Shown here: piece by piece, positions 29,404-40,848 of the stretch
Layout: every line of letters begins with the position of its first letter
Numbering within the stretch: position 1 is the first letter of the stretch
Virus record (IMG/VR): IMGVR_UViG_3300036864_000038
Location: 1 to 41,777 of that record
Reading direction: 5' to 3' (one strand)
Source: a virus
Length of the DNA stretch: 41,777 nucleotides
Notes under the pieces: model-generated
The model's input: only the letters and a program-made list of their open reading frames with translations
Database searches by the model: none
Told to the model about the DNA's origin: nothing
Translations under genes and position numbers: made by a program

Positions 29404-30087
29404 CTACTTAACAGGTTTTTGTGGCACTGAGAAGTAGCGCGGATCATCCAGAAACCGCGCGCCGTAGCGGAATGTCCCGCAATGATACACCGCCTGATCA
29501 ACGATCACAAAAGGCTTGGCAATTGATCTGGCACGTTCACAAAACGAGGTATCCTCCGACAACACCTCGCCATTGACTTCGATCCGATCGAACCAGGCTT
29601 CACCCATGCGCTCCAACAATTCACGCGTCAGCAACACGCAGCCGAAGCCGGTGCGGCGCACCGGCATAAAACCATCCACAACTTCCTGCATGCCGTCCTC
29701 CAAGTCGAGGCACCAGGTGAGTGAGGACGCCAGCGATCCCTCTAGAGAATGGTTGCTTTTCAATCGAAATTGTAATTCCTTGAGATTGATGTCCCGCTTG
29801 CAAAACGGCAGCGCCGTGAACAGGTGCTTTGATGCGAGCAACTTATCCATCGCCTTAAGGCCCACCTCACTATCGCTGTCGACCATCAGCAGGTGCGTGC
29901 GGTCGGAATATTTGAGAAACTGCATCACCAGCATGTTGCGCGCCGTCACGATGTCGGAGGAATCGACGCCGATCTTGAACAAGTTGATGCCGCGCACTTG
30001 GGCTACGCGCGCGATCGACACCAAGGTTTCGGCGTAACCGACGTTGACCTGGGAATACATCGTGGGCGTTGCGATGCACAGGTTCAT
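29404..30087 (-). CDS. Glycosyltransferase-like protein (GT-A fold)
   Basis: Residues 1-120 follow the GT-A pattern: a first strand MNLCIATPTMYSQVN, then DIVTARNMLVMQFL and the nucleotide-sugar/metal motif HLLMVDSDSEV (Asp70-Ser-Asp72). C-terminal motifs LSEDTSFCERA and AVYHCGTFRYG fit the acceptor side and a second acidic residue. It has no signal peptide or membrane segment. It could add sugars to phage DNA bases, a virion protein or host surface glycan. It is one of two such genes here, separated by a 64-codon gene. Confidence 0.7.
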   Translation of the reverse strand: MNLCIATPTMYSQVNVGYAETLVSIARVAQVRGINLFKIGVDSSDIVTARNMLVMQFLKYSDRTHLLMVDSDSEVGLKAMDKLLASKHLFTALPFCKRDINLKELQFRLKSNHSLEGSLASSLTWCLDLEDGMQEVVDGFMPVRRTGFGCVLLTRELLERMGEAWFDRIEVNGEVLSEDTSFCERARSIAKPFVIVDQAVYHCGTFRYGARFLDDPRYFSVPQKPVK

Positions 30088-32782: not shown

Positions 32783-32908
32783 CTACAGATAGGCACGCTG
32801 CATGTGGTGTAGCATTGATTTACCTACCATATTTGGTGCAATCGTTTCGGGTCCGTAACGAAATCGCATGAGAGAGGGCACGCTAACGCGTTTCTCGTGG
32901 TCATTCAA
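32783..32908 (-). CDS. Possible small protein coupled to DUF1376 gene (41 aa)
   Basis: A TTG at 32908 overlaps the DUF1376 stop codon as TTGA, like the ATGA overlaps elsewhere, with GGAGGA upstream. It opens 41 codons (NDHEKRVSVPSLMRFRYGPE and TIAPNMVGKSMLHHMQRAYL). The composition looks like real protein. An ATG at 32869 would give 28 residues. It is too short for confident assignment, and no family is recognised. Confidence 0.4.
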   Translation of the reverse strand: MNDHEKRVSVPSLMRFRYGPETIAPNMVGKSMLHHMQRAYL

Positions 32909-33696
32909 AACGGTATTTCGTCCTCCTCCATCTGTTTGACGACAATTTGTGACAATTGTTTCAGCGTGTCAGCGTTTTTCGTAGCCGTTGTTTGTTCTTG
33001 TGGCACGTAGTTTGGTGGATATTCGCTGTCGAAGTACCATCCACCTAAAGCGTTGATCTTAGGCCACGTTCCCATGTGCTTCCACCATGCTGAGTAAGCT
33101 TCTGTTCCCTCTTTGACGAGTACACCTTTCGGCTTGGGCTGCTCCGGTGGTTGGCTGCTTGGCGCGAATGGAAACTGGTGCCCCGGCGAGGGAGGGAGCG
33201 CCTCGAGCGAACGACCGACTGAGCCGGGAGACACGGGTAGTCTAGAAGTATTATTAGGATTGGATAGGATAGGAGGCATTGCGGTTGCATGTCCGTTCGC
33301 ATATGCGGTCTTACTGGTTATCTCATTGTTTTTGTTTGATTTGGCATCTGACTTCGACCACCTGCTAAGCGCTGCCTGTCGATTAGCTATCGACGACTTC
33401 GCGACGACTTCGCGGACACTTCGCTGCTTCTTCTGCCTCCAAGTCACCCCGTCGCCGTCGTCCGCCAGCGTCCAAAACTGCTCGAGCACGCGCGGCCGCA
33501 GCCGCTTCCAAGTGCGGGTGTCGATGCCTAGCCTAGCCGCGATCCACTTGTCGTCGACTGGCAGGTCGCAGTTCGGCCGCAACCACGCGAAGCAGATCAA
33601 GAGCCAATAGGCGCCCTGCTCCTCGAGCGTCAGATCGGGGTGTGTGTCCGCGACCCAGGTGTCAGGGAACACGGGCATGGAAGGGTATTTTGACAT
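32905..33696 (-). CDS. DUF1376-domain protein, replication-initiator-like
   Basis: The N-terminal 90 residues match DUF1376 (YPSMPVFPDTWVADTHPDLT, LEEQGAYWLLICFAWLRPNC, then DDKWIAARLGIDTRTWKRLR), a domain found in phage proteins in place of a replication initiator. A basic linker follows with NRQAALSRWSKSDAKSNKNN. The C-terminal part has a motif also found in alphaproteobacterial phage relatives (AYSAWWKHMGTWPKINALGG). It probably recruits the host helicase or primase to the origin, as no other replication gene is present. Confidence 0.75.
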   Translation of the reverse strand: MSKYPSMPVFPDTWVADTHPDLTLEEQGAYWLLICFAWLRPNCDLPVDDKWIAARLGIDTRTWKRLRPRVLEQFWTLADDGDGVTWRQKKQRSVREVVAKSSIANRQAALSRWSKSDAKSNKNNEITSKTAYANGHATAMPPILSNPNNTSRLPVSPGSVGRSLEALPPSPGHQFPFAPSSQPPEQPKPKGVLVKEGTEAYSAWWKHMGTWPKINALGGWYFDSEYPPNYVPQEQTTATKNADTLKQLSQIVVKQMEEDEIPF

Positions 33697-33758
33697 CGGC
33701 GTGCGCCCCCCGGCGCGTGAGTTGATGGCTGGTAAGCTCCTCGCGGGGGCGAGGGCAA

Positions 33759-33770
33759 CCGCTCGAGCGG
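33759..33770. promoter_or_regulatory. 12-bp perfect palindrome CCGCTCGAGCGG
   Basis: A perfect palindrome lies in the 234-bp region between the divergent DUF1376 gene and the 33931 gene. It lies between the DUF1376 start and the plus-strand promoter, where it could be an operator for one or both. No second copy was seen nearby, so it may be chance in GC-rich sequence. Confidence 0.3.
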
Positions 33771-33857
33771 CTGTCCCAGCTCACCCCCAATCCGCCACCT
33801 GTTTGCGCGCTGTGTCAAGCCGTAATCACAAGCGCGTGAGTGTGTTGACCATGAAGG

Positions 33858-33886
33858 TTGACTTGCGCGTTGGCGCGTGCGATACA
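33858..33886 (+). promoter_or_regulatory. Sigma70-like promoter
   Basis: TTGACT (33858-33863) and GATACA (33881-33886) are separated by exactly 17 bp, about 45 bp upstream of the ATG at 33931, which has an AAAGGAG ribosome site. A second TTGACC lies 14 bp upstream of this -35. On the minus strand, TTGACA at 33818-33813 could serve the DUF1376 gene but lacks a good -10. Confidence 0.6.
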
Positions 33887-33930
33887 GATTGCGGCCGCAG
33901 GGGTGCGGCTTTATCGAAAGGAGAAGGTAA

Positions 33931-34389
33931 ATGTCTGCATTCATCGTAGAGCATGCCCATATTGACGCGCTAGTGAGCTGGGCCGCTCATAATCGCGTGT
34001 CTGTTTACCTGCAAACGACCGGCAACCGCGTTGATGTTGCCGGCAATGAAACGCAAATCGGCAAGTGGTTGATGGAGGAAAACGAAAAATCCGTCCTTTC
34101 CAGATATCCACAGGACACGCTAGATAGCGCGCCAGGCTGCATCGGAGAGCGATCGACAAACTACAAGTTCCGTGAATTTCTGCCGGCGCTGAAACCCGTC
34201 GAAGTGCTCAAAGCCTGCCATTGCTTGGACTACCAATCGTGTGAGCATGACGAGTGGCCGCAATCATTGGCCTACGGCATCCTGCAAAGCATCGAACGGG
34301 CGGCAATGCGCCAGTTGCCCGGCTATGAGAACGCGCCGTGGGGCGTACCCAAGAGAGTCAATGATCGGCACTTGCGTCGAGTTATCTAA
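33931..34389 (+). CDS. Hypothetical early protein (152 aa)
   Basis: AAAGGAG precedes the ATG, and its own promoter lies just upstream. The N-terminus (SAFIVEHAHIDALVSWAAHN) and a later segment (CLDYQSCEHDEWPQSLAYGI) resemble small uncharacterised proteins of phages and of their alphaproteobacterial hosts, but I know of no function. A mixed alpha/beta, soluble protein with five cysteines is expected. Its stop overlaps the convergent GcrA gene stop by 4 bases. Confidence 0.65.
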   Translation: MSAFIVEHAHIDALVSWAAHNRVSVYLQTTGNRVDVAGNETQIGKWLMEENEKSVLSRYPQDTLDSAPGCIGERSTNYKFREFLPALKPVEVLKACHCLDYQSCEHDEWPQSLAYGILQSIERAAMRQLPGYENAPWGVPKRVNDRHLRRVI

Positions 34390-34901
34390 CCCCTCCCACC
34401 TGGATGCCACGGTCGCGGGGCAGGCGTATCGGCCCCGCGGCGGTACACGATGCCAAGGTGATACGGGCACCATGATCCTTCCCCACATGGCGCCGCGCAG
34501 TAGAGTGCATGCCGGCCGCCGTCGTTGACGATGAACCGGCATTCGCCATAGCCGATCGTCCAGATGTCCTTGGGCGCGCAAACAGGCGGTCTGTCCACAA
34601 CGACCGGACGCGGCTTCAATATCAACGGCTTCCATGTTGCCTGCCGCAAGCGCCGCCGGGCCGCCCGTTCCTCTGGAGGGCGCGATGGGCGGCCCCCACT
34701 GCGCGGCCTAGACGCCAATCCCATGCGATCAGCCTTCCCCAGCACCGCGTTGCGGGTTGTGGAAAACCCGATCCGATCAAGCCTCAATTTGATTTCTGAC
34801 GCCGCGTAGCCTGCCGCCCAGAGCTGGGCGAGCGCGCTTTCCGCCTCCTCGGTCCATCGCTGATTGAAGTGGCGCCGACCTCCTCCTTCGGTATCTTCCA
34901 T
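34386..34901 (-). CDS. gcrA: GcrA-like cell-cycle regulator
   Basis: The N-terminal helix-turn-helix matches GcrA: RWTEEAESALAQLWAAGYAA, then SEIKLRLDRIGFSTTRNAVL and GKADRMGLASR. The C-terminal part has the conserved GECRFIVNDG and CGEGSWCPYHLGIVYRRG segment with paired cysteines and a histidine. In Alphaproteobacteria, GcrA recruits RNA polymerase to promoters methylated by CcrM. A phage copy could redirect or imitate cell-cycle transcription. GGGAGG precedes the ATG. It starts inside the Cro-like gene. Confidence 0.8.
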   Translation of the reverse strand: MEDTEGGGRRHFNQRWTEEAESALAQLWAAGYAASEIKLRLDRIGFSTTRNAVLGKADRMGLASRPRSGGRPSRPPEERAARRRLRQATWKPLILKPRPVVVDRPPVCAPKDIWTIGYGECRFIVNDGGRHALYCAAPCGEGSWCPYHLGIVYRRGADTPAPRPWHPGGRG

Positions 34902-35113
34902 GCCGCCTCCCGCTCGCGCCGCCGATCGTCGTCCGCCCGCTCATGCTCGGCCTTGAGAGCGGCCGCCGGCAATCCCGTCACATCCGCAACCACTTTGATA
35001 TGGTCGAGCGGAACACGTTTCCACTTGTTCACAGCTTGCTTGGATACCTCGCAGCGCCGCGCAATCTCGGACTGTAGCCCCTCACGCTTGCGAATTGCCG
35101 CCATCACGCTCAT
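34784..35113 (-). CDS. Cro/YdaS-like helix-turn-helix regulator
   Basis: I use the ATG at 35113 (a GTG at 35125 is the alternative). Residues 10-50 form a helix-turn-helix of the Cro/YdaS type (LQSEIARRCEVSKQAVNKWK, then DHIKVVADVTGLPAAALKAE). The rest is a charged, Arg-rich helical tail. Its C-terminal 39 codons overlap the GcrA gene in another frame. It is divergent to the early operon with an operator-like inverted repeat between them, so it probably controls the early switch. Confidence 0.75.
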   Translation of the reverse strand: MSVMAAIRKREGLQSEIARRCEVSKQAVNKWKRVPLDHIKVVADVTGLPAAALKAEHERADDDRRREREAAWKIPKEEVGATSISDGPRRRKARSPSSGRQATRRQKSN

Positions 35114-35140
35114 GTGTTTATCCACTGGTTGTCTTGTGCT

Positions 35141-35173
35141 ATTGACTACCGCATTATAAGGGTGCTAGTCAAT
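35141..35173. promoter_or_regulatory. Operator-like inverted repeat in divergent promoter region
   Basis: ATTGACTA (35141-35148) and TAGTCAAT (35166-35173) form a perfect 8-bp inverted repeat around 17 bp. A TATAAT (minus strand, 35158-35153) lies in the middle, and TATAAG (plus, 35155-35160) overlaps it. The arrangement between the HTH gene and the 35211 operon is that expected of a repressor operator over a divergent promoter pair. Confidence 0.55.
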
Positions 35174-35210
35174 GCTTCGTTACGGTTTCACACAATCGGA
35201 AGGATACACA

Positions 35211-35348
35211 ATGAACGAAGTCTTAACCCACACTGGCGAGTCGGCAGCGTTCTTCACGGATGCCACCTACATTGTGCTGGTTATCGGTGCCTGCGTGCTG
35301 ATCACGCTCGCGTTTACCGCCGGCGCCGTCAGGTGGCTCGGGCGGTGA
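35211..35348 (+). CDS. Single-span membrane microprotein (45 aa)
   Basis: AAGGA lies 7 nt before the ATG. The product (MNEVLTHTGESAAFFTDATY) has one hydrophobic segment, residues about 20-40 (IVLVIGACVLITLAFTAG), and a basic end (RWLGR). It opens the plus-strand early operon directly after the operator. Its stop overlaps the next gene, with GTG inside the stop as GTGA. Function unknown. Confidence 0.65.
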   Translation: MNEVLTHTGESAAFFTDATYIVLVIGACVLITLAFTAGAVRWLGR

Positions 35349-35524
35349 ACCACGAAGTCAAATTCTTCACCAACGAACGCACCGGGCTGGCCGCCGCGCA
35401 ATGTTCTTGCGGCCAGTACTGGAGCGGCACACTGGAGGCCGTGCAGGCATGTGCCGCCGCGCATGACCTCGACGAGAAGCCACAAGGAGGCAAACCAAAT
35501 GGCAAAGTCAAAGATATTGAGTGA
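35345..35524 (+). CDS. Hypothetical small protein (59 aa)
   Basis: The start is a GTG overlapping the upstream TGA (GTGA). The product (VNHEVKFFTNERTGLAAAQC, then SCGQYWSGTLEAVQACAAAH) has three cysteines, including a CSC, and a short charged tail. The downstream gene begins inside it at 35499. The CxC could bind metal, but there are too few ligands for a full zinc finger. Function unknown. Confidence 0.55.
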   Translation: MNHEVKFFTNERTGLAAAQCSCGQYWSGTLEAVQACAAAHDLDEKPQGGKPNGKVKDIE

Positions 35525-35723
35525 TGCGGAGGCGTTGGAGCGTCATGTCGCCAAACTGCGGCAGGACATGGGCGAGGATCGCGGTGGATGGCTTTCCGAT
35601 CGTCGCCTCGATTGGCCCACATTCTACCTCGCCGTGATCGGTGCCATTGTCTGCATCGTGGTGGGCGCCCTCGCATGGTGGCCGCTCGGGCTGGCGTCGT
35701 GGAAATACTGGTTCCCGTCATGA
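35499..35723 (+). CDS. Membrane-anchored helical protein (74 aa)
   Basis: AAGGAGG lies 8 nt before the ATG at 35499. The N-terminal half is a charged helix (KILSDAEALERHVAKLRQDM) and the C-terminal part has a hydrophobic span (WPTFYLAVIGAIVCIVVGAL). The long leader of the open frame before 35499 is a shadow. It overlaps the next gene by ATGA. Its topology is that of a single-span anchor with a cytoplasmic coil. Confidence 0.65.
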   Translation: MAKSKILSDAEALERHVAKLRQDMGEDRGGWLSDRRLDWPTFYLAVIGAIVCIVVGALAWWPLGLASWKYWFPS

Positions 35724-35947
35724 CCGCGATGGGCTTCGACGAGCGCAAATACACCAAGCGCCGAGGATTGCCGATCACCGGCTACCTCGACCCGGAAAGC
35801 CGCTTGCTGAAAGTGGCTGTGCGCTGGACGCGGCCGCAGTTCGACGCCATCAACCACCGCGTCGTGCGCAATAACTCGACGTTCGCCAAGGAAGCGCGGC
35901 GGTTGATGGAAATCGGGCTGCGCATGGATCATATCGGTGACGCATGA
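35720..35947 (+). CDS. Ribbon-helix-helix-like DNA-binding protein (75 aa)
   Basis: The start ATG overlaps the previous stop (ATGA). After a basic arm (MGFDERKYTKRRGLPITGYL), the pattern strand KVAVRWT, helix RPQFDAINHRVVRNN and helix FAKEARRLMEIGL fits an Arc/MetJ-type fold. Such a dimer binds DNA through the strand and could be a second early regulator. The fold assignment rests on pattern only. It overlaps the HNH gene by ATGA. Confidence 0.55.
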   Translation: MTAMGFDERKYTKRRGLPITGYLDPESRLLKVAVRWTRPQFDAINHRVVRNNSTFAKEARRLMEIGLRMDHIGDA

Positions 35948-36408
35948 CGAAATATTCCCGCTGGCAACCAAAACCTCAAATGGCGACATTTCTCTCTAAG
36001 ATGCGAGGGAAGCGCGGCTGCTGGATTTATCCAGGAACAATAGATACTGGCGGTTACAAAAGCGTAAAGCACAACGGCAAAAAAATAGGCGCTCACCGAG
36101 TGGCGTACATGGTCGGGGCTGGAAAAATACCGAAAGGGAAATATGTTTGCCATCATTGCGATACGCCCGCATGCGTTCGTCCTTCTCATTTGTTCGTCGG
36201 GAGCGCAAAAGACAATTATTTGGACGCTAAAGCCAAGCGTCGGCACACGCACGGGGATAAATGTTGGCGCGTAAGACTGACCGAACGAGCAGTGAAGTAT
36301 ATCAAGCGCAGCAAAAAAACGCAGACAGAATTGGGCCGTCAATTCGGCGTCAGAAATACAACCATTTGGCAAATAATCCACGGCAGGAATTGGAAACATG
36401 TCGCTTAA
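35944..36408 (+). CDS. HNH endonuclease (HNH_3-like)
   Basis: The core contains KGKYVCHHCDTPACVRPSHL and FVGSAKDNYLDAKAKRR, where CHHCD and the following CVRP and HLF provide the beta-beta-alpha metal site with paired cysteines. A helix-turn-helix-like C-terminus (KKTQTELGRQFGVRNTTIWQ) probably binds DNA. Unlike the copy at 31444-32040 it is embedded in an operon by ATGA overlap, and its coding sequence is more A+T-rich than its neighbours, suggesting recent entry. Confidence 0.85.
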   Translation: MTKYSRWQPKPQMATFLSKMRGKRGCWIYPGTIDTGGYKSVKHNGKKIGAHRVAYMVGAGKIPKGKYVCHHCDTPACVRPSHLFVGSAKDNYLDAKAKRRHTHGDKCWRVRLTERAVKYIKRSKKTQTELGRQFGVRNTTIWQIIHGRNWKHVA

Positions 36409-37339
36409 ACAGGGGATTTTTTATGACATCGAGCCGCGTATCTACTTCCAAGACCCGGCACCGGACCCCTCGCTCACGCAAACGCTCGTCAAAATCCTGC
36501 TCGATAAGTCCCCGCGCCATGCTGCGCGCAAACACCCGCGCCTATGGACGGCTAGTGTCGAAGATGGCGGACTTGAGAAATATGATCGGCGTTTTGCAGT
36601 CGCAAATGCAGCTCACGCAATCCTTATTGGCCGAGGTCGGGAGGTCGCAGAAGCGCCCTTCGACGCGTTCCGCAGCAAGGACGCTAAAGCGTTTCTCGAT
36701 GAACAAACTCGTGCTGGACACACTGTAATCCTAGCCGACCACATGCCGATCGCGCTGGCGATGGCAAAATCCGCCCGCGAGCAGATCGAGATACACGAGG
36801 CCAAGGACTTCATACAGAATGGTCAAGGCGAAGTGATGCTACTGTGGGAGGAAGATGGTGTCTGGCTACGCTCTCTTGTTGATTGGCTACACGATGATCT
36901 TTGTCTTGTGGACGATCTTAAGACTACGCAGGGATCGGCTGCACCACATGCAATCGCGGGCCTTATGGCGGATAGCGGCTGGTGCATACAAGCTGCGATG
37001 CAAGAACGCGGGCTTAACGCGCTCGACCCCGCCAACGTCGGCCGGCGCCGGTTCCGTTTCGGTGTCCTTGAACAATACCCGCCGCATGCACTCTCGATCG
37101 CCGAACTCTCGGAAGCCTGCATGACCATCGGTCGCAAGCAGTTGCAGGTGGGGATAGACATTTGGAAAAGATGTATCCGAGAGAACCGTTTCCCAGGCTA
37201 TGATCCGCGCGTGTTGGTGCCAGAATATCCATACTACAAGGCCGCGGCGTGGGAGGAACGGGAATTGACGGAGTTTGATAAAATCAAGCAAACGTTCCTA
37301 GACGCGTCGGCCCAAGTAACCGTGTTGGGGTCAGGATGA
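36398..37339 (+). CDS. RecE-like exonuclease, PD-(D/E)XK fold
   Basis: The 313-residue protein has the layout of exonuclease VIII/DUF3799 enzymes: KSPRHAARKHPRLW at residues about 37-50, NAAHAILIGRGREVAEAPFD at 69-88, and an active site with WLHDDLCLVDDLKTTQGSAA around 163-182 that contains the D...DLKT signature. It should resect double-stranded DNA ends for strand annealing. The next gene is a RecA-fold ATPase and overlaps by ATGA, so the two probably form a recombination pair. Confidence 0.75.
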   Translation: MSLKQGIFYDIEPRIYFQDPAPDPSLTQTLVKILLDKSPRHAARKHPRLWTASVEDGGLEKYDRRFAVANAAHAILIGRGREVAEAPFDAFRSKDAKAFLDEQTRAGHTVILADHMPIALAMAKSAREQIEIHEAKDFIQNGQGEVMLLWEEDGVWLRSLVDWLHDDLCLVDDLKTTQGSAAPHAIAGLMADSGWCIQAAMQERGLNALDPANVGRRRFRFGVLEQYPPHALSIAELSEACMTIGRKQLQVGIDIWKRCIRENRFPGYDPRVLVPEYPYYKAAAWEERELTEFDKIKQTFLDASAQVTVLGSG

Positions 37340-40022: not shown

Positions 40023-40255
40023 CGCATCCTCCAGACGCGCACGCCCTTCTCGACAGTGCGCGTTATAAACTTCCATTCAGGCTCATTCTTGCGCGCCCAG
40101 TTTGCTGCTATGGATGCATATATAGCGCTGGCCCTCTTGTACTTCTTTGGCAACAGGACCGAATCCCCTACCTTCATTTGCTGCCACGGGAACTTGGTGC
40201 GCCTACCTCGCACTGCCTCCGAAATCGGGATATCCTTCTCGATCTTGAAAGTCAT
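40019..40255 (-). CDS. Conserved-type small phage protein (78 aa)
   Basis: The protein (FKIEKDIPISEAVRGRRTKF, MKVGDSVLLPKKYKRASAIY, then FITRTVEKGVRVWRMR) follows a pattern seen in many phages: a short strand, MxVGDS, a helix, and a C-terminal GVRVWR strand. Its function is not established, but a small nucleic-acid-binding or regulatory role is often assumed. It overlaps the serine recombinase stop by ATGA. Confidence 0.65.
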   Translation of the reverse strand: MTFKIEKDIPISEAVRGRRTKFPWQQMKVGDSVLLPKKYKRASAIYASIAANWARKNEPEWKFITRTVEKGVRVWRMR

Positions 40256-40848
40256 CGTTCAATGGCCTGCCTGCCGCCCGGGAAGTGGTATCCGAGGAGT
40301 TGCTTGCTGATGCCGTGTTTCTTACAAATCGCCACCACGGACAGTTTGTAGGCCAAAAGATCACGTTTAATGGCCTGCTTTTTCTTCCGGTCTAACTGAG
40401 CTGGCCTGCCAATCAGGAGGCCCGCCTTACGCCGTGCAGCAATACCAGCAATTGTCCGCTCAATCGTCACATCGCGTTCAAACTGGGCTAGCGCTGCTCG
40501 CATATTGAAGATCAGTTTTCCGTCTGCGGTGCTGGTGTCGATTGGCTCAGTAAGGGACTTAAGCGCGATCCCTCGACTAAGCAGGTCTTTGTTGATGGCG
40601 ATAAGTTGGTCCACGCTACGGGCGAGCCTTGAAAGTGAGTAGACAACCAAGGTGTCGCCGCCTCTGAGGTATCGGCGGCAATCTCCCCAGCCTTCACGAC
40701 GCATGGAACTCGCAGAAAGTTTATCTTCGAAGATGCGGGCACACGGATAGTCACGGAGCGCCCGCAACTGCATGTCCAAGTTTTGCTCAGCGGTGCTGAC
40801 TCTTGCGTATCCGACAAATTCGCCATTTTTGCCATTCTTCTTTCTCAT
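40252..40848 (-). CDS. Small serine recombinase (resolvase/invertase family)
   Basis: The N-terminal catalytic domain shows VGYARVSTAEQNLDMQL with the active-site serine, the RGGDTLVVYSLSRLARSVDQ segment, and a long E helix. The C-terminus ends in a helix-turn-helix (VVAICKKHGISKQLLGYHFP). The length of 198 residues is typical for resolvases and invertases and far too short for a large serine integrase. It might resolve genome multimers or flip a segment. A promoter reads directly into it, with transcription probably starting within a few bases of the ATG. Confidence 0.85.
   Translation of the reverse strand: MRKKNGKNGEFVGYARVSTAEQNLDMQLRALRDYPCARIFEDKLSASSMRREGWGDCRRYLRGGDTLVVYSLSRLARSVDQLIAINKDLLSRGIALKSLTEPIDTSTADGKLIFNMRAALAQFERDVTIERTIAGIAARRKAGLLIGRPAQLDRKKKQAIKRDLLAYKLSVVAICKKHGISKQLLGYHFPGGRQAIER

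Follow-up and report, generated by a model that had tools for sequence, protein, structure and literature searches.

A probable two-domain GcrA homologue behind a small HTH regulator gene in a GANTC-depleted phage genome

Organization of the gcrA locus

The window analysed here is the whole 41,777-base IMG/VR virus record IMGVR_UViG_3300036864_000038 (57% G+C), and its subject is a pair of overlapping minus-strand genes, which encode a small helix-turn-helix (HTH) regulator and a homologue of GcrA. GcrA is described as an activator that acts through the sigma2 domain at promoters carrying N6-methyladenine (PMC7403470). The gcrA-like gene (34386..34901, minus strand) starts with ATG and encodes 171 amino acids, which match the Pfam family GcrA (PF07750) with an E-value of 2.6e-14. 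The HTH gene (34784..35113, minus strand), assigned to the XRE/Cro type by weak HTH matches and an AF2 model, encodes 109 amino acids from the ATG at 35113, or 113 from an alternative GTG at 35125 (open reading frame (ORF) 34784-35125, minus strand). The two genes share 118 bp (34784..34901, minus strand) in different frames, as the first-pass annotation of this DNA had reported and the ORF listing confirms. By the ORF frames and the AF2 models, this segment encodes the tail of the HTH protein and the N-terminus and first DNA-binding-domain helix of GcrA. A Shine-Dalgarno-like GGGAGG (34906..34911, minus strand) is located within the HTH gene, 4 nt 5' of the gcrA ATG. An operator candidate, ATTGACTA-N17-TAGTCAAT (35141..35173, no strand assigned), separates the HTH gene from the rightward early operon; it was delineated by its symmetry and its occurrence in relatives, follows the pattern TTGAC-N21-GTCAA and contains no GANTC, the site methylated by CcrM.

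Two-domain structure of the phage GcrA

The PF07750 match scores 54.3 bits (cut-off 26.9) and aligns residues 15-158 with positions 2-150 of the 155-position profile. A PDB sequence search up to E 1 returned three matches, all of them Caulobacter crescentus GcrA (best 7ye1_G, E 7.8e-10). The AF2 model, for which 98 phage sequences were aligned, has a mean pLDDT of 82 and low confidence at the N-terminus. The predicted DNA-binding domain (residues 15-62; 34716..34859, minus strand) contains the recognition helix TTRNAVLGKADRMGL. Model residues 10-62 superimpose on the 5yiu DNA-binding domain with a VIA Z of 8.4 (rmsd 1.4 over 49) and the domain matches 5yiv with a VIA Z of 7.8 (rmsd 0.8 over 45). 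For comparison, Myb-type chains that are unrelated score up to Z 6.8. The predicted sigma70-interacting domain (residues 108-154; 34440..34580, minus strand) displays a C..C..C..H pattern and matches 5yix_B with a VIA Z of 5.6 (rmsd 2.1 over 47 of 48) and a Foldseek probability of 0.99 (E 0.16, TMt 0.75). This match is of moderate strength, as a structural Z below 8 can reflect a common arrangement.

The window GcrA shares 24-39% identity with the 97 other aligned phage GcrAs, and tblastn against the phage collection at E 1e-5 gave no match to it; for the GcrA of one relative described below (G011), matches at E 0.001-0.008 were obtained to phages of the CcrRogue type and to two Manatee Spring phages. 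The profile match and the predicted two-domain fold bear out the phage GcrA homologue of the first-pass annotation, and it is very likely that this is a real two-domain GcrA, encoded in the early control region of an alphaproteobacterial phage. As both domains are kept, the natural expectation is that the protein would bind sigma70 and read DNA. Conservation of the sigma70-interacting fold in such a diverged protein would also suit a competitor that takes sigma70 domain 2, blocks host GcrA and shuts off cell-cycle transcription. The DNA-binding domain, superfluous for a pure competitor, is retained, however, and a competitor role is quite improbable.

HTH regulator and its overlap with gcrA

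The Pfam matches of the HTH ORF all fall under the curated cut-offs: YdaS at 19.2 of 30 bits (E 0.0011), P22_Cro at 17.1 of 30.2 (E 0.0047) and HTH_3 at 16.1 of 23 (E 0.012). Among PHROG families, the repressor family phrog_35 is matched at E 1e-5. The AF2 model, computed on an alignment of only three sequences, consists of five helices with residues 1-71 ordered, and its structural scores are Z 7.6 for HigA, 5.1 for Xfaso1 Cro and 4.9 for P22 Cro (best Foldseek E 0.30). The modelled fold is thus loosely, in broad outline, that of lambda repressor. The name 'Cro-like' given to this gene in the first-pass annotation fits its position and its loosely matching predicted fold, short of proven family membership, with no profile over its curated cut-off. 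Homologues of the HTH protein are found in the capsid-search record G001 (E 1.3e-11; 20.9 kb, with no GcrA match in that record) and in locus L105 (29% identity; P22_Cro 2.6e-5), where the gene sits directly 5' of a gcrA.

The overlap had been proposed to constrain both genes, and the models and the base composition speak against this. Predicted order in the HTH protein extends to about residue 71, and codon 71 is also where the overlap starts. Codon-position GC inside the overlap is 0.67/0.51/0.67 in the GcrA frame and 0.51/0.67/0.67 in the HTH frame, a pattern that follows the GcrA frame, not the HTH frame, in what is a weak test over 39 codons. The first part of the overlap encodes an HTH motif WxIPxxEV (AWKIPKEEV, compared with RWAIPLREV in the single homologue of G001), and this stretch coincides with the low-confidence N-terminus of GcrA. 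Mostly one of the two products would therefore be constrained at each overlap position. Shifted frames stay open for at least 39 codons at 560 of 1670 sampled, non-independent positions (33.5%) of the window genes. With open frames this common, the HTH tail predicted to be disordered and the GC pattern following GcrA, the overlap was rejected as a dual-coding curiosity; it looks like ordinary translational packing.

Among the matches listed from the wider scan of phage gcrA loci described below (95 loci), a 4-bp overlap is the most frequent junction between gcrA and its upstream gene (29 of 69 same-strand neighbours), and overlaps of at least 60 bp occur in three of the 69 (L081, L108 and L138). 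In L138 (9749-10395), gcrA shares 97 bp with a small ORF of Cro-like appearance (judged by eye), in a geometry like that of the window, and what seems, also by eye, to be a RusA N-terminus comes next. This small ORF has no Pfam or PHROG match and is the sole HTH-looking one of the three.

Recurrence of the gene pair and the operator

A capsid search in viral contigs returned 13 records. PF07750 is over cut-off in five of them (G003, G008, G010, G011 and G013); the eight others are G012 (44 kb) and seven records of 5-30 kb. In all five gcrA-bearing relatives, a small same-strand ORF lies directly 5' of gcrA. The junction is a 4-bp overlap in loci L015, L017 and L018 (records G010, G008 and G013), a 23-bp overlap in L016 (G003) and a 27-bp gap in L020 (G011). 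Four of the small ORFs are distinct: those of L015, L018 and L020 match HTH families of Pfam weakly (E 0.0014, 0.00037 and 0.025, respectively), and that of L016 matches only PHROG phrog_8 (E 0.011). The GcrAs of these relatives share just 24-32% identity with the window GcrA. The coding score of the HTH ORF is low (4.6), and gcrA scored lower still and was omitted by the rough gene caller, as might be seen if the locus had no phage function, with a host gene in passing or with one of the two ORFs spurious. This is scarcely credible given that the pair keeps its arrangement in relatives with such divergent GcrAs, that the HTH protein has its homologues in G001 and L105, and that both GcrA domains are intact.

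The TTGAC-N21-GTCAA pattern is observed in the divergent regions of the window, L015, L016, L017 and L018. The L017 and L018 regions are identical, which leaves four distinct regions, and in these the pattern arose by chance in 1, 0, 1 and 0 of 5000 shuffles each. It is missing from the divergent region of L020 and occurs elsewhere in seven other fetched loci, three of which are near-identical copies. In the window, the symmetrical candidate lies beside the first gene (HTH) of the leftward operon, as it should for a Cro-type regulator. Just across the operator region, on the opposite strand, G003, G008, G010 and G013 carry a YqaJ recombinase gene. G011, G001 and the window yielded no YqaJ gene; in the window, this place is taken by an exonuclease VIII-like gene (36398..37339, plus strand; phrog_412, E 3.7e-43) that belongs to the rightward divergent operon. 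G012 has a YqaJ gene without gcrA, and for the divergent L016 gene a search of PDB sequences gave no match.

The same-strand genes 3' of gcrA are primosomal in the window and L016, RusA-like in L020 and of an unknown-function family in L015. In the window, the next called minus-strand gene downstream of gcrA encodes a primosomal or replication-initiation-type DUF1376 protein (32905..33696, minus strand; phrog_9327, 1.1e-13; DUF1376, 6e-9). Between the two lies a gene of unknown function (33931..34389, plus strand; 152 amino acids), which is convergent with gcrA, overlaps its end by 4 bp and has no match in Pfam or PHROG up to E 1. The gcrA gene thus occupies a CII-type position: it directly follows a Cro-type gene and precedes one of initiator type, with one convergent gene intervening. 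Within the literature searched, the repressor-gcrA cassette and its operator appear to be new: no such cassette was found in papers on GcrA with phages, prophages, Cro or late genes, in which subscription journals were thinly covered.

The window also encodes major head, terminase-type and baseplate-type proteins and a serine recombinase with a Resolvase N-terminal domain, DNA invertase-like (40252-40848). The window ORFs that were scanned, a subset of the total, included neither a tyrosine integrase nor a CI repressor. One terminator-like site was found, below the number in shuffles.

Phage GcrAs in viral contigs

A motif scan of viral contigs identified at least 120 loci, of which 108 have an ORF of at least 90 amino acids carrying the motif (12 were dropped). 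Removal of 13 near-duplicates left at least 95 non-redundant phage GcrAs, in which TRNAVIGK is invariant by construction because it was the search pattern. PF07750 was detected in 98 of 98 proteins, namely those of the window, three relatives and 94 of the scanned set; L044, which duplicates the record of a relative, was omitted.

The genes directly upstream of gcrA were compared over 74 ORFs (the window, four relatives and 69 other loci among the matches listed). The highest single-family count is 5 of 74, for HTH_3, with at least two of these from relatives; RusA, DUF1064, YdaS and phrog_190 (Holliday junction resolvase) each occur three times. The phrog_1574 family, function unknown, is found in four of the 74 and also in the window at 29404-30087. 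Downstream (63 ORFs; the window and 62 loci among the matches listed), phrog_474, labelled phosphofructokinase, occurs five times and primosomal phrog_3992 four times, and methyltransferases are also present. In L100 (2248-4067), the end of gcrA overlaps by 4 bp a gene for an N6/N4-methylase, whose best PDB match is 2zie (E 4.2e-20), followed by CcrMI (6pbd, E 1.3e-16); a reader-writer pair on one phage operon is possible. The methylase family PF01555 has no match in the window and is present in 16 of the 50 records searched (the window and 49 of the 95 listed loci). Phage GANTC methylases have already been described (PMC5537653).

Phage-encoded GcrAs are likewise on record. Raised host replication has been proposed for gp222 of phiCbK, along with host takeover (PMC3556154), and for gp5 of Agrobacterium phage Atu_ph08 (PMC6630229), and a regulatory role has been suggested for the homologues ORF4 and ORF5 of brucellaphage Y17 (PMC11836647). 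GcrA is also listed for phiLM21-like prophages in a table row of PMC12429752 and for a phage linked to a coral-associated Rhizobiales metagenome-assembled genome (MAG) (PMC11309003). The window GcrA itself is new; phage GcrAs as a kind are already known.

Depletion of GANTC

GANTC occurs 39 times in the window, compared with 118.6 expected under a Markov model, and its ratio of 0.33 is the lowest of 16 palindromic motifs of that form. Dinucleotide shuffles raise the expectation to 175.5, and the ratio is 0.26-0.37 in every quarter of the window. Under synonymous-codon shuffling of 29 genes, the 27 observed sites compare with 67.5 expected (sd 6.8, minimum 48 in 300 shuffles, ratio 0.40), and the next lowest of ten motifs is TANTA at 0.63. 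Two of the 39 sites are intergenic, with ~9.6% of the window non-coding; gene calls in the window and loci came from our own codon-score script, which is rough, and gcrA was forced into the window before counting. The divergent operator regions of the window, L015, L016, L017 and L018 contain no GANTC. The first-pass annotation had seen no clear GANTC cluster by eye, in agreement with this depletion across the window, and had placed CcrM sites in GACTA-adjacent operator sequences, which fails because the GACTA contained in the operator arms ATTGACTA/TAGTCAAT is not a CcrM site. At least eight six-base palindromes are missing from the window as well (for example, CTGCAG, 0 versus 16.7 expected; CCATGG, 0 versus 11.6), which suggests avoidance of further sites besides GANTC.

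The 95 listed gcrA loci contain 1176 GANTC sites against 2257 expected (0.52), and 120 control loci contain 2436 against 3003 (0.81). Among loci with at least 10 expected sites, the medians are 0.52 (82 of 95 gcrA loci) and 0.86 (104 of 120 controls; Mann-Whitney p 1e-13), with the control loci GC-richer (0.64 versus 0.59) and not all gcrA-free (GcrA in 4 of 50 control records searched, out of the 120). Nearly GANTC-free gcrA loci are L080, L092 and L138, and also L084, L102 and L103, where few sites are expected. Counted over 35 kb each, the ratio is 0.49 in CcrRogue, which has a GcrA match, and 0.82 in CcrColossus and 0.97 in lambda, which have none in their whole records. The GcrA-bearing capsid relatives have ratios of 0.56-0.71, G012 and G001 of 0.88-0.89, and two Manatee Spring capsid relatives of 0.88 and 1.07; G003, G011 and G012 were counted from overlapping pieces, so that some sites were counted twice. 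Partial records without a gcrA match span 0.69 (G005), 0.77 (G006) and 0.06 (G007). In L008, a capsid relative without a GcrA match, 18550 of 22778 bases hold 2 GANTC against 30.9 expected. gcrA carriage as the cause of GANTC avoidance is not established, as gcrA-less phages avoid GANTC too.

A phage GcrA that recruits host RNA polymerase to CcrM-methylated GANTC in phage promoters would couple the phage to the host cycle, as the first-pass annotation had proposed. Both required GcrA domains are present, the 39 remaining sites could include one well-placed site, which would be enough, and the GANTC at position 55 is intergenic, 83 bp 5' of a called gene (138-932). That gene, at the left end of the record, encodes a pentapeptide-repeat protein with DUF5758. 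The depletion, the presence of only two intergenic sites and the GANTC-less divergent regions speak against this proposal. Nor is GANTC visibly denser around gcrA in the 95 listed loci, where its intergenic enrichment is 1.17-fold, compared with 1.44 in control loci and 1.01-1.20 for six other motifs in gcrA loci; clustering near gcrA or between genes was thus not found. A scan of alphaproteobacterial phages likewise reported no positional asymmetry of GcrA sites (PMC9437464). Recruitment to methylated phage promoters is the least supported of the three activator models and is improbable.

The same evidence bears on an activator that works via sigma70, without GANTC, at delayed-early or late promoters of the phage itself, whether independent of methylation or relaxed in its need for it. 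The scarcity of intergenic GANTC and the GANTC-less operators are compatible with such an activator, as are the CII-like slot of gcrA, between an HTH gene and a replication-type gene in the window, L016 and L020, and the RusA, phrog_190 and HTH_3 upstream neighbours, which often mark early operons. C. crescentus GcrA also binds some GANTC-less regions in vivo (PMC3667746), and a prophage operon of Brevundimonas is GcrA-dependent (PMC7987155). Set against this, no consensus sigma70 promoter was matched at 33600-36500, the recognition helix matches that of the methyl-DNA-reading GcrA, and the parallel with lambda CII is a positional analogy only. We consider this activator possible, if doubtful.

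Model for the action of the phage GcrA

The host is most likely an alphaproteobacterium, as judged from the distribution of GcrA and the GANTC avoidance. PF07750 is present in 36 of 58 genomes from the class of G116 (Alphaproteobacteria) and in 0 of 56 from the class of G115 (Paludibacterium), with signal also in an Acidobacteriaceae-titled MAG and in the control Sulfolobus acidocaldarius. The eight capsid matches in genome contigs, all but one in MAGs, are scattered over phyla and give no host call.

The reading that we prefer, tentatively and at somewhat less than even confidence as a whole, has host promoters as the target of the phage GcrA. It builds on the two-domain homology, the gene order and its recurrence, the operator spacing and the GANTC avoidance. 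A leftward early operon would consist of the HTH repressor gene followed by gcrA and would be expressed from a divergent operator that also serves the rightward recombination operon. Autoregulation by the HTH protein at the candidate site 35141-35173 is most likely, and translation of gcrA would start at its own ATG and Shine-Dalgarno sequence, both located in the last part of the HTH gene. The C-terminal domain of GcrA would bind domain 2 of host sigma70 and the N-terminal domain would bind DNA, both as in Caulobacter. GcrA would then act on GANTC-bearing host promoters, and the host cell would be pushed into or held in a replicative state during phage replication. Host promoters appear the likeliest target because the phage genome is purged of GANTC and has almost none between genes. 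In alphaproteobacterial genomes, GANTC is at least 2-fold under-represented, except in Rickettsiales, and more than 1.5-fold enriched between genes (PMC3973325), so that host promoters are where the sites lie.

Several points weigh against this preference for host promoters. One site suffices for an activator, and scarce GANTC is therefore compatible with a phage promoter target. A 26-gene prophage structural operon of Brevundimonas depends on host GcrA (PMC7987155), which points to phage genes as targets. In its first 35 kb, Caulobacter phage Cd1 has 0 GANTC where 61 would be expected, and the ratio in Rhizobium phage 16-3 is 0.60; neither phage has a GcrA match in its whole record. Avoidance in gcrA-less phages means that it marks the host at most and tells little of the target; the GANTC bias in bacteria may itself have causes besides CcrM (PMC3973325). 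The sigma-interacting domain is matched less firmly than the DNA-binding domain, and the gcrA of CcrRogue sits elsewhere, between an unnamed ORF and a gene annotated as DNA polymerase. The codon-score caller ranked the gcrA ORF below the HTH ORF and left it out, and the codon usage of gcrA is thus atypical for the window genome. As a separate observation, Cd1, which is GANTC-free over the counted stretch (L297, 1-35000), has its own RNA polymerase.

A broader generalization, which we hold to be unlikely, is that in phages of CcrM-bearing Alphaproteobacteria a GcrA in a post-Cro (CII-type) or resolvase-adjacent slot is a lytic activator at GANTC-less phage promoters, with GANTC purged so that the host methylation/GcrA clock cannot read the phage DNA. 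If true, a host cell-cycle sigma70 cofactor would have been turned into a standard phage control protein. Phage GcrAs have so far been noted singly, at times with the suggestion that they drive the host into S phase. The present analysis adds a recurrent repressor-gcrA cassette, an operator of fixed spacing and a family that is common in viral contigs, with at least 95 non-redundant proteins. Should these GcrAs control promoters of the phage or replication genes of the host, they would give direct access to the question of how phages sense the stage of the host cell cycle. GANTC loss, which is complete in the 35 kb of Cd1 counted, is itself a sign, open to testing, that CcrM methylation is of consequence for such phages.

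Comparison with known systems

Both domain folds of C. crescentus GcrA (5yiu, 5yiv, 5yix and 7ye1) are matched by the window GcrA, and its recognition helix T-R-N-A-V-x-G-K is retained. The window protein differs from it in having four extra residues in the loop that precedes the recognition helix and in being a phage-borne protein of 171 amino acids encoded within an HTH operon. In being phage-encoded, it resembles the GcrAs of phiCbK, Atu_ph08, Y17 and the phiLM21-like prophages, whereas the available parts of the descriptions of these phages mention no Cro-type neighbour or operator. The window HTH protein shares its gene position and a loosely matching predicted fold with the small repressors of the P22 Cro, YdaS and XRE types, from which it departs in its sub-cut-off profile scores and in being structurally nearer to HigA (Z 7.6 versus 4.9-5.1).

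The PR operon of lambda has the gene order cro-cII-O. Unlike lambda, the window has no CI gene between the divergent operons, its GcrA is outside the CII family, and gcrA is separated from the initiator-type gene by a gene on the other strand (33931-34389). The order itself is the same, with a Cro-type gene followed by a transcription factor and then a primosomal or initiator-type gene, and in the window, too, a recombination operon that includes an exonuclease gene runs divergently from it.

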